Part shown: in pieces, positions 15,820-20,015 of the stretch
Layout of the letters: each line of letters starts with the position of its first letter
Numbering within the stretch: the first letter of the stretch is position 1
Assembly (NCBI GenBank): GCA_001871125.1
Contig: MNXB01000023.1
Span: 1-33,754, forward strand
Direction: 5' to 3'
Length of the DNA stretch: 33,754 bases
From: Elusimicrobia bacterium CG1_02_37_114
Lineage (GTDB): Bacteria > Elusimicrobiota > Endomicrobiia > CG1-02-37-114
Notes under the pieces: generated by a model
Told to the model about the DNA's origin: nothing
Databases searched by the model: none
The model's input: the letters and a program-made list of their open reading frames with translations, nothing else
Position numbers and translations under genes: made by a program

Positions 15820-16893
15820 ATGATTTATAAAGGTGTGATTGAAAGGTACAGGGAATTTCTGCCTGTTAGTTCCAAAACACCTGTAATAACTATGTATGAA
15901 GGCAACACGCCTCTGTTACGTGCAGTAAATCTTGAAAGAAGACTCGGATTACAGAGTATTGAGTTATATCTTAAATGTGAAGGGTTTAATCCCACTGGCT
16001 CTTTTAAAGACCGCGGTATGACAGTGGCAGTATCCAAAGCAGTTGAAGAAGGAGCAAAAGCTGTTATGTGTGCATCTACAGGCAATACCTCAGCCAGTGC
16101 TGCTGCATATTCCAGCAGGAGCGGTCTGAAATGTATCGTCCTTATACCTGAAGGTGCAATTGCATTAGGTAAACTCTCGCAGGCTATGATACACAATGCA
16201 GAAGTCGTTGCTGTCAGGGGAAATTTTGATACTGCGCTTAATTTAGCACGTGAAATTTGTGAAAAATACCCTGTTACGCTTGTAAACTCTATCAATCCAT
16301 ATCGCATAGAAGGACAGAAAACTGCCTCGTTTGAAATTGTTGATTCGTTAGGCAGGTTTCCTGATTATCAGTTTATGCCAGTAGGTAATGCCGGCAATAT
16401 TACTGCCTACTGGAAAGGATATAAGGAATATCAGAAAGTAAAACATAGTGACTGCCTGCCGAAAATGATGGGGTTTCAGGCATCGGGATCGGCACCCATT
16501 GTATTGGGAAAACCAATAAAAAATCCCGAAACTATAGCAACTGCAATAAGAATAGGTAACCCGGCAAGCTGGAAAAAAGCAGTTGAAGCACGGGACGAAT
16601 CAGGTGGTGTGATAGATACTGTGACTGATAAAGAAATAATAACCGCATATAAATTGATTGCGGGAACAGAAGGTATTTTTGTTGAACCGGCAAGCGCATC
16701 TTCGGTTGCAGGGTTGCTCAAGTATGTTAAAAAAGGTTATTTCTCCGAAATAAAGAGTAAAGAAACTGTTACCGTTGTATGTATTCTCACGGGTCATGGA
16801 CTTAAGGACCCTGACAGGGCGATAAAATCCGTCCGGATGCCAAAGGTTGTCAGCGCAAACCTTAAATCTGTTCTGAAAGTAATAAGATTGTAA
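15820..16893 (+). CDS. thrC: Threonine synthase
   Basis: The protein is 357 residues, the short-form length. It converts O-phosphohomoserine to threonine with pyridoxal phosphate in the cytoplasm. GSFKDRGM carries the PLP lysine (Lys63), [12 protein letters not shown] binds the substrate phosphate region, and [16 protein letters not shown] is the glycine-rich PLP phosphate loop. AAGGAG (15804-15809) lies inside the end of ntpA, so the gene is probably translated from the ATPase transcript. Other amino-acid biosynthesis genes are not nearby. Confidence 0.95.
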
Positions 16894-16919
16894 AAAAAAT
16901 AATATCAATAGTTAATTGG

Positions 16920-16935
16920 TAAAATTCCGTATGGG
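16920..16935 (+). repeat. 16-bp direct repeat A, copy 1 (left of the VapC module)
   Basis: TAAAATTCCGTATGGG is identical at 18363-18378. It lies 24 bases before the putative antitoxin start, and its partner lies 92 bases after the toxin stop. Confidence 0.8.
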
Positions 16936-16958
16936 AAAAGAACAGGGGGAAATTTCAG

Positions 16959-17882
16959 GTGAATAAACAGAACAAAATCCTAACTGTTAAATTAGAAGGT
17001 CCAAATGTAAAAGAAGGACGTATTTCTATAGATTCTTTTACTTTACTTATCTCAAAAATTCAGTCCTGTGTTGAACATTTTGGTTTAATTTTGGGTGGTA
17101 AAACCACGGGTAGAAATATTCGTCGCCATCCTTCAGCAATAAAAAAAGAATGTTCATTAGAAATTGTGTCATTGTTACCAGGTAGTCTGGAAGTAACATT
17201 TGACCTTACTTCAAAAGAAGAACAATCTACTCTTTTTAAAACACCACATCTTGGAGAAAAAGCGGTTAGTTTAATGGTTGATACTATTTCAGGATTTGAA
17301 AAAGAAAAACCAACACTTCCGCCCGAAGTAAATGTTCCTGTTGTAAGATTTATCCGTGATATTTCCAATCTGACAAATGAAGATGTTTCTTCTATTAAAT
17401 TTTCACTTGAAAAACCAGATATAAAACAAGCAATAATTACAAAAGAAGTACATAGTCGTATTGAAAAATATATATTAGAACCATATTGGAGTGCTACTCT
17501 GGTAGAAGGTATTTTAAGAGAAATTGACCTTGAAAGAAATAAATGCCAGGTTTTTCCAATAGATAATAAACCATTTGTTAGATGTATTTTCAGTAAAGAT
17601 GATGAAGATGAAGTTATATCAGCATTAGATAAATATGTCAAGGTTCATGGTGAAGCAAAAATTCGGGCAGAAGACGGCAGTATTCAATTACTGGAAATTA
17701 AAGATATAGAAATTGTCTCTGAGATAGAAGAGGCAGGGTTGTTTAAAGAAGAACAGGGTTTAAAATGTAAAGACTTGTTAAATTCTGACTTAGTTGGAAT
17801 ATGGAAGAATAGAACAGATATACATGACACAGTAAAATTTGTAGAAGAACTGAGAAAGAAAATAAGTCAGAGAGAGATATGA
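16959..17882 (+). CDS. Large putative VapC-associated antitoxin (307 aa)
   Basis: This gene starts at GTG with AGGGGGA (16944-16950) upstream. Residues 1-85 form a beta-rich domain (LTVKLEGPNVKEGRISIDSF ... GSLEVTFDL) seen in unnamed proteins. Residues 85-250 are mixed and unassigned. The last 35 residues, DLVGIWKNRTDIHDTVKFV and the following LRKKISQRE, match the toxin-binding tails of VapB/Phd-type antitoxins (pattern L-x-G-x-W-K-x-R-x-D-I-x-D). The stop overlaps the VapC start (ATGA), the standard antitoxin-toxin order. Usual VapB proteins are 70-100 residues, so this is about three times larger. No DNA-binding fold is recognisable. The antitoxin role is inferred from the tail and position. 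Confidence 0.6.
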   Translation: MNKQNKILTVKLEGPNVKEGRISIDSFTLLISKIQSCVEHFGLILGGKTTGRNIRRHPSAIKKECSLEIVSLLPGSLEVTFDLTSKEEQSTLFKTPHLGEKAVSLMVDTISGFEKEKPTLPPEVNVPVVRFIRDISNLTNEDVSSIKFSLEKPDIKQAIITKEVHSRIEKYILEPYWSATLVEGILREIDLERNKCQVFPIDNKPFVRCIFSKDDEDEVISALDKYVKVHGEAKIRAEDGSIQLLEIKDIEIVSEIEEAGLFKEEQGLKCKDLLNSDLVGIWKNRTDIHDTVKFVEELRKKISQREI

Positions 17883-18271
17883 TACCAATTAATATATTAC
17901 TTGATACAACTATACTAATAGATATTTTTAGAGGTTGTCGACCGGCAATTGATTGGTTAAAATCGCAATCTGATAAAAATATTGGTATTTCTGGATTCGC
18001 GGTCTTTGAGATATTGCAAGGTTCCCGCAATAAAGAAGAAATGTTATCTCTACAAAAGAAATTAGAAAAATTCCCCGTTTTCTGGCCAACGGAAGATGAT
18101 TGCAATCGTGCGCTCGCAACATTTGCTAATTTATATTTAAGTCATGGTGTTGAGGTGATAGATGTTTTAATTGCTTATACTACCATTGGATTAGATATTC
18201 CAATTGTAACACTTAACGAAAAACATTTTAAGCCGATTTCTGGATTAAAAACTATAATTCCATATCAGTGA
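17879..18271 (+). CDS. vapC: VapC-family PIN-domain ribonuclease toxin
   Basis: The protein is 130 residues, the usual length for VapC. Acidic residues of the PIN active site are visible: Asp9 in LLDTTILIDIFRG, Glu44 in SGFAVFEILQG, and Asp95 in EVIDVLIAYTT. The fourth conserved region reads VTLNEKHFKPI. PIN toxins cut tRNA or rRNA in a metal-dependent way until bound by the antitoxin. It overlaps the upstream gene by 4 bases, so the two are co-translated. Confidence 0.88.
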   Translation: MIPINILLDTTILIDIFRGCRPAIDWLKSQSDKNIGISGFAVFEILQGSRNKEEMLSLQKKLEKFPVFWPTEDDCNRALATFANLYLSHGVEVIDVLIAYTTIGLDIPIVTLNEKHFKPISGLKTIIPYQ

Positions 18272-18282
18272 CAGAAGCACCT

Positions 18283-18300
18283 TATTGACCAGATAGACCG
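18283..18300 (+). repeat. Imperfect repeat B, copy 1 (right of VapC)
   Basis: TATTGACCAGATAGACCG matches TATTGACTAAATAGAACG at 18440-18457 in 15 of 18 positions. It starts 12 bases after the vapC stop. Confidence 0.55.
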
Positions 18301-18362
18301 TGAATTAGTAGAACATTAGGGGGTTACTGAATAAAAATTGAACTTCATCATTAATTATGACA

Positions 18363-18378
18363 TAAAATTCCGTATGGG
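18363..18378 (+). repeat. 16-bp direct repeat A, copy 2
   Basis: Identical to 16920-16935. It is followed by GAAGGAGA and an ATG at 18406 that opens only a 15-codon frame, as if a second gene start of the same type had lost its body. Confidence 0.8.
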
Positions 18379-18439
18379 TAAAGGGGATGAAGGAGAATAT
18401 TTAAAATGCTTATCAAGATAGAATTAACCAAAGATGCCC

Positions 18440-18457
18440 TATTGACTAAATAGAACG
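18440..18457 (+). repeat. Imperfect repeat B, copy 2
   Basis: This is the partner of 18283-18300. It lies 61 bases after repeat A copy 2 and 19 bases before the LeuT-like gene. Confidence 0.55.
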
Positions 18458-18476: not shown

Positions 18477-20015
18477 ATGAAAAGGGAAAGATGGGGAACA
18501 AGATTAGGAATCATTCTTGCTGTGGCAGGTTCTGCCGTGGGACTCGGTAATTTCCTGAGGTTTCCTGTCCAGGCGGCACAGAATGGCGGCGGAGCATTTA
18601 TGATACCATATTTTATTTCCCTGATTCTGTTAGGTATACCCCTGATGTGGATTGAATGGACCGCAGGCAGGTTCGGCGGCGGATTCGGACACGGTAGTGC
18701 GCCAGGGATTTTTCATTCAATGTGGGAGAAGAATAGATTTATAAAATATTTCGGTGTTATCGGCATATTCGGTCCGACTGTAATTTTTATGTATTACACT
18801 TACATAGAATCGTGGCTACTGGGCTATGCGTTCTTCTCTTTGACAGGCAGATATGCAGGTGCGGATACACAGCAGGCGATGCAGTCGTTTTTATCAGGAT
18901 ACCAGGGTTTAGAGTCAAATGAATTTTTTTCAGGATTGGGCTGGGCATATACATTTTTTCTGATAACATTTATAATAAACATTACCGTGATATATCGCGG
19001 TATCCGGGGCGGTATTGAAAAACTCTGTAATTTTGCAATGCCGGTACTTTTTCTATTCGGTATAATTATTGCAGTGCGCGTCCTTACCCTGGGCACACCT
19101 GACCCTGCAAAACCTGATTGGAATTTGCTCAACGGGCTTGGCTTTTTGTGGAATCCTGACTTCGCGGTTCTTAAAAATGCAAAAGTATGGTTTGCAGCAG
19201 CAGGACAGATATTTTTTACCCTGAGCGTCGGTATAGGCGTAATTCTTACCTATGCAAGTTATTTAGACAAACGTAATGATGTGGTTCTCTCAGGACTTAC
19301 TTCAGGCGCAACCAACGAGTTTGCAGAAGTTATTCTCGGAGGGAGTATCGTTATACCTGCAGCATTTGTATTCTTCGGTCCCGAAGGAATTGTTAATATA
19401 GCAAGGGGTGGGGCGTTTAATTTAGGATTTGTTACGATGCCTCTTGTTTTTCAGAAAATACCAATAGGTGCATTATTTGCATTTTTATGGTTTATATTAC
19501 TTTTCCTTGCAGGTATAACATCAAGTGTATCGCTGGCGCAGCCGGCAGTTGCTTTTCTGGAAGATGAGTTTGATATTGATAAAAAAAGCGCCGTAACGAT
19601 TTTTGGCATTATAACTTTCCTGCTGTGTCAGCCGGCAATATTCTTCCTTGGTAAAGGAGTGCTGGATGAACTGGATTTCTGGGGCGGGACTTTTTGCCTT
19701 GTGTTATTTGCAACAGTAGAGTCCATACTGTTTTCCTGGATTTTTGGTATTGACAAAGCCTGGAAAGAAATACATTCAGGAGCAGATATTGCTATACCGA
19801 AATTCTATAAGTTTATTATAAAATATATCACGCCGACGTTTTTACTTTTTATACTTGGTTTCTGGCTTTACCAGGAGGGTTTACCTGCAATACTGATGAA
19901 AAATGTTGTGGTAGAAAATTACCATGCTGTCCTATATACAAGGATAAATATGGTAACCCTGTTTGTTATTGTTGCAATTCTTGTAAGACAGGCCTGGAGG
20001 AAAAAGGCACAATGA
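18477..20015 (+). CDS. LeuT-type Na+:amino-acid symporter (NSS/SNF family)
   Basis: The protein is 512 residues with 12 expected membrane helices. It closely resembles Aquifex LeuT throughout: VGLGNFLRFPVQAA, IPLMWIEW, YTYIESW, GQIFFTLS, TNEFAEVILGG, AGITSS, QPAVAFLEDE and FGIDKAWKEI. The Na+ ligand Asn (LeuT Asn27) is Asn25, and the Asn286/Glu290 pair is kept as NEFAE, typical of chloride-independent bacterial members. Pocket differences are LeuT Asn21 to Ser19, Phe259 to Ile, and Ile359 to Leu, so substrate preference may differ. It imports a neutral amino acid using the Na+ gradient. Family call certain; substrate inferred. Confidence 0.95.
   Translation: MKRERWGTRLGIILAVAGSAVGLGNFLRFPVQAAQNGGGAFMIPYFISLILLGIPLMWIEWTAGRFGGGFGHGSAPGIFHSMWEKNRFIKYFGVIGIFGPTVIFMYYTYIESWLLGYAFFSLTGRYAGADTQQAMQSFLSGYQGLESNEFFSGLGWAYTFFLITFIINITVIYRGIRGGIEKLCNFAMPVLFLFGIIIAVRVLTLGTPDPAKPDWNLLNGLGFLWNPDFAVLKNAKVWFAAAGQIFFTLSVGIGVILTYASYLDKRNDVVLSGLTSGATNEFAEVILGGSIVIPAAFVFFGPEGIVNIARGGAFNLGFVTMPLVFQKIPIGALFAFLWFILLFLAGITSSVSLAQPAVAFLEDEFDIDKKSAVTIFGIITFLLCQPAIFFLGKGVLDELDFWGGTFCLVLFATVESILFSWIFGIDKAWKEIHSGADIAIPKFYKFIIKYITPTFLLFILGFWLYQEGLPAILMKNVVVENYHAVLYTRINMVTLFVIVAILVRQAWRKKAQ

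Follow-up and report, generated by a model that had tools for sequence, protein, structure and literature searches.

VapB antitoxins normally consist of a DNA-binding domain followed by a C-terminal tail, and the tails of ordinary VapBs inhibit their VapC partners with a conserved arginine placed near the active site of the toxin. Several different families of DNA-binding antitoxins have been described for PIN toxins (Makarova et al. 2009, PMC2701414, in the sections consulted), and the hyperpromiscuous PanA/NetFlax antitoxins pair one antitoxin domain with several unrelated toxins (PMC10440598, in the portions consulted). Another described system that is relevant here, PDC-M32 of PADLOC, consists of M32A and M32B and is itself no more than a phage-defence candidate.

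The stretch of DNA analysed here (the window; 33,754 nucleotides) comes from the 2.09 Mb draft genome of Elusimicrobia bacterium CG1_02_37_114. As in VapBC pairs, a putative antitoxin gene comes first (16959..17882, + strand; 307 codons with a GTG start) and overlaps a putative toxin gene (17879..18271, + strand; 130 codons) by an ATGA at 17879-17882, which bears out both open reading frames of the initial annotation and their junction. Homologues of the 307-aa protein are those of loci L010, L011, L030 and L002, a Geminocystis plasmid and satellite phage Javan304, and alignments of relatives begin at this GTG. We firmly assign the 130-aa protein to the PIN domain from its sequence: it matches Pfam family PF01850 above cutoff (E 1e-7) and the NCBIfam VapC family NF047959 at 7e-14, yet below the curated cutoff of the latter, and the acidic residues D9, E44 and D95 are in place as in VapC toxins, with an asparagine (N113) at the fourth position. 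It is 33% identical to the VapC of an ordinary vapBC pair of the same genome (L008) and 36% identical to that of an ordinary pair (L036) from a second genome of the class. The latter pair (L036:1206-1884, genome G044), a small antitoxin with VapC, provided the nearest counterparts that we found for both the tail and the toxin of the window.

By eye, the neighbours of the gene pair are a threonine synthase-like gene upstream (15820-16893) and a sodium-dependent transporter-like gene downstream (18477-20015). The GC content of the pair is 31-32% versus about 41-43% in the adjacent genes, and its GC3 is 16-21% versus 32-38%. An imperfect direct repeat of 37 nt flanks the pair (16904..16940 and 18347..18383, + strand), and its exact 14-nt core AAATTCCGTATGGG occurs just twice in the whole genome, making the repeat a possible insertion footprint. 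Together, low GC and GC3 and the flanking repeat suggest, without proving it, that the pair was gained horizontally. A second imperfect repeat lies 3' of the toxin gene (CCTTATTGACCAGATAGACCG at 18281-18301 and CCCTATTGACTAAATAGAACGG at 18436-18457) and is possibly the remnant of a small open reading frame.

The likeness of the 307-aa protein to VapB lies in its C-terminal tail (residues 278-302, LVGIWKNRTDIHDTVKFVEELRKKI; 17790..17864, + strand), after which the protein ends with five more residues. Residues 278-288 read L-V-G-I-W-K-N-R-T-D-I, exactly the L-x-G-x-W-K-x-R-x-D-I pattern for which the initial annotation had proposed a VapB-type toxin-binding end, and are followed further on by LR; the same GIWKxRxDI...LR type of tail is carried by antitoxins of ordinary pairs. 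The small antitoxin preceding the VapC of L036 ends in FGMWKDRTDIFDDVNQYVRNLRKE plus five residues, and the window tail aligns to this antitoxin with a score of 71 that was reached by 0 of 20,000 shuffles, compared to a score of 32 for the best window of the core, so that the resemblance goes beyond chance. Scores against the VapBs of L008 (RHH-type, same genome) and L037 were 46 and 41 (22 and 90 of 20,000 shuffles, respectively). The VapB of L008 is RHH-like, with an RHH_1 match of 0.005 that is below cutoff, and by eye that of L037 resembles it, whereas the L036 antitoxin seems to start with another type of N-terminus. One and the same tail is thus carried by at least two, and probably three, different scaffolds. 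Since this tail is common to the small antitoxins that precede the nearest VapC relatives, we regard it on sequence grounds as a real, transferable VapC-binding module, and its presence makes toxin inhibition the most likely role.

What precedes the tail differs from an ordinary VapB. Instead of a small RHH, AbrB, HTH or Phd domain, the 307-aa protein carries a core of about 255 residues that is folded into two lobes in structural models, and this core, in line with the large additional domain proposed initially, stands where the usual DNA-binding domain would be. The initial annotation had also described some 270 residues as unassigned, which holds for Pfam (no family at E<=1) and NCBIfam but not for PADLOC, where PDC-M32A matches residues 55-256 at 6e-6. 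Searches of PDB sequences with the whole protein, the tails or a profile gave no meaningful match. Two AF2 models, with mean pLDDT values of 63.5 and 51.5 and just 2 and 3 input sequences, respectively, agree on an alpha/beta lobe over residues 1-175 (16959..17483, + strand), a barrel of five strands in OB order over residues 180-254 (beta1-3, alpha, beta4-5; 17496..17720, + strand), a low-confidence and probably flexible linker over residues 256-277 (pLDDT <50; 17724..17789, + strand) and a terminal helix from residue 289. For either lobe, confidence is moderate in just one of the models: the first lobe mostly reaches pLDDT 70-88 in the first model, with places at 51-64, and is worse in the second, in which the OB lobe is better with about 70-84 over most of its length. 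In alignments of relatives, the first lobe has the conserved motifs CSLEIV...GSLEV (residues 65-79) and LF (92-93).

Foldseek comparison of the modelled second lobe with the PDB returned SilF, a mycobacterial SSB, PriB, RPA and CST with E-values of 7e-4 to 1e-2, of which SSB, PriB, RPA and CST account for 9e-4 to 1e-2, as well as the metallochaperone CusF, which supports a predicted OB-fold. The earlier guess that the domain might sense nucleic acid thus gains some support from the matches to ssDNA-binding proteins; the top match, however, is the metallochaperone SilF. Ligands of OB-folds further include metals, peptides and sugars. Nucleotide-cyclase-like PDB matches of the first model were discarded as unreliable (E 9e-3, TM 0.2). 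Among viral models, Foldseek found three phage proteins of similar fold (E 1e-7 to 4e-7, TM 0.41-0.44). One phage protein named after DUF6575 is similar in fold only, and the window protein was not assigned to this family given that it does not match Pfam PF20215; a search for DUF6575 in its own genome found none, and controls likewise gave none. An anti-phage screen in E. coli recovered a DUF6575 protein (PMC9519451), and with no match of the window protein to the model of this family, we treat the link as a lead only.

The core is homologous to about positions 8-259 of M32A, and the window protein itself covers just positions 52-256 of 375 and is thus not a full-length M32A. It differs from PDC-M32 in that a VapB tail takes the place of the C-terminal domain of M32A (positions 254-350) and that the next gene encodes not M32B but a PIN protein, which has no PADLOC match. 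In the literature searched, in which subscription journals were thinly covered, we found no description of the 307-aa protein. None of the PIN-associated antitoxin families in section 9 of PMC2701414 resembles the core, as far as the text consulted goes, nor do the portions consulted of the account of PanA/NetFlax in PMC10440598 name it.

Profile searches for relatives of the core across 336-341 genomes of the phylum recovered three further large antitoxins that are linked to PIN genes (L010, L011 and L030). The operon-like pairing, for which the initial annotation had cited the overlap as support, thus recurs with PIN in three further genomes, and all four members of this branch lie directly 5' of the PIN gene, with an overlap or short gap at the junction in the three relatives; the large protein being mostly found without a PIN gene, the finding named in advance as counting against the pairing, is not what this branch displays. 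The PIN domains of L010 and L011 are recognised by Pfam (1.8e-15 and 1.2e-5, respectively) and that of L030 by alignment and a DTN...E...ND pattern. PDC-M32A matches the large proteins of L010 and L011 at 2e-10 and 5e-13. The LR of the tail is invariant at the same relative place in all four antitoxins of the alignment; for L011 and L030, the support for a VapB tail consists of just this LR and its position. These four are the only PIN-linked members found and all belong to one phylum. Single-protein scans of genome contigs and viral contigs found no new core relatives, alignment scans of viral contigs added just one further Javan304 copy, scanning for a DNA motif returned nothing besides chance matches (L013 and L014) and the known L011 locus, and tblastn of plasmids with the PIN-linked members gave no match.

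The settings of these relatives were named by eye. The L010 pair (L035:2974-8681, genome G099) sits between methyltransferase-like and helicase-like genes, within what looks like a restriction-modification operon, and the neighbours of L030 are TcmP-, Gp37/68- and helicase-like genes. At L011 (L015:4296-5876, JAD_PAG50586_1), the PIN frame is truncated, with a transposase-like gene after it on the opposite strand, and the pair may therefore no longer be active there.

Beyond the PIN-linked branch, the core occurs with other C-termini and next to other partner genes. In a genome of another genus of the class (L002, genome G020), a 343-aa core homologue precedes a gene for a 98-aa protein, with transposase-like genes on both sides by eye, and a cyanobacterial Geminocystis plasmid carries the same arrangement across the plasmid origin. 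The large proteins of these two loci are 32% identical and their small partners 51%, so that a small conserved partner of the core is known from two phyla. Profile comparison links this group to the PIN-linked one (96.6% probability; E 6e-10 for the comparison taken singly). By eye the small partner resembles HicA, and we did not adopt this identity in the light of Pfam, NCBIfam and PDB searches that gave no meaningful match.

The Streptococcus satellite phage Javan304 (MK448417) encodes a homologous core (1.9e-11 with the A3 profile; 94.9% in profile comparison) whose homology extends over lobe 1 into the beginning of lobe 2; unlike the window protein, it stops right after the core without any tail, and its neighbour, 138 nt downstream, is a DUF3800 gene (7e-17). 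Conversely, the C-terminal region of M32A has stand-alone homologues at L003, L024 and L025. At L024:495-1464 (genome G136), such a protein is followed by an M32B homologue (4.7e-8) with no core within the stretch, and at L025:1453-2704 a TIGR04255 protein (1e-22) directly precedes it and seems to occupy the place that the core has in M32A. A 379-aa protein encoded in genome G244 (L033) may at most be distantly related to the core (60%, 8.6e-5). It stands in a row with two genes named by eye, one of TIR-like C-terminus and one DUF4365-like (L033:3285-5987), near recombinase/integrase-like genes. As homologous cores carry other C-termini and adjoin other partner genes, the core appears from these sequences to be a general module with VapC as one of several clients, and the new class specific to VapBC that the initial annotation had suggested is therefore too narrow: the pair is one branch of a wider family of modular antitoxins.

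We consider it probable that the pair is a type II VapBC-like system in which the small DNA-binding domain of the antitoxin has been replaced by a modular, defence-associated scaffolding or sensing core. By analogy, it would work like VapBC, though it lacks the small DNA-binding domain of the antitoxin that is one of the features defining VapBC. The PIN protein would be a toxic RNase and the 307-aa protein its antitoxin, whose flexible tail (GIWKxRTDI...LR) would bind and neutralise the toxin with the conserved arginine set near the active site as in VapB. The core would serve as a general scaffold that oligomerises and holds the toxin inactive, and may bind nucleic acid or another cue of infection whose arrival frees the toxin.

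A plainer account, to which we give a minor yet appreciable share of credence, is that of an ordinary VapBC system that autoregulates through the core as a new domain for dimerisation and operator binding, the core having no role in sensing or defence. That the core stands where VapB usually has its DNA-binding domain fits this, the predicted OB-like lobe could bind DNA, and PIN toxins are known to have several families of DNA-binding antitoxins (PMC2701414, in the sections consulted). The core is, however, far larger than the operator-binding domains covered there and matches none in Pfam, the same core serves partners other than PIN in mobile or defence-like settings, and in Javan304 it exists without the tail. 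From this re-use in mobile and candidate defence settings, we infer that sensing or scaffolding is likelier than plain autoregulation.

The nucleic-acid-type OB-fold matches and the restriction-like operon around the pair in G099 would also suit an active two-subunit nuclease, in which nucleic acid is bound by the core while PIN is tethered and guided, and not inhibited, by the tail. We think this improbable: the tail matches the antitoxins of ordinary small vapBC pairs, which are established inhibitors, and type II systems typically have overlapping genes with the antitoxin in front, as this pair does. Strongly disfavoured, and given hardly any credence by us, is that the two genes adjoin by accident or that the likeness of the tail is due to chance. 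Neither the L011 tail nor the L030 tail by itself has a significant score against the VapB tail of L008, a point in favour of this reading, but the shuffle test of the window tail against L036 and the adjoining PIN gene in all four such homologues speak against it.

Returning to the VapBC-like system with an exchanged core, its core could be a safety-catch or sensor that is used again and again with toxins and candidate phage-defence proteins. More tentatively, and with clearly less confidence, we propose that it represents an undescribed family of modular antitoxins or sensors in several phyla and phage satellites, in which the OB-fold core would detect nucleic acid or protein related to infection and exchangeable C-termini would control a PIN RNase, DUF3800, the small conserved protein, M32B and possibly TIR. 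The likeness to PanA/NetFlax (PMC10440598, in the portions consulted) would then be inverted, given that the partner-binding part here appears to be a swapped C-terminus and not the shared domain. If this is true, one sensor or safety core controls unrelated toxins through swaps of its C-terminus, which would turn PanA-type promiscuity, as we understand it, the other way round. The uncharacterised defence candidate PDC-M32A would thereby gain a testable function, and there would be a direct route to asking what releases a VapC toxin.
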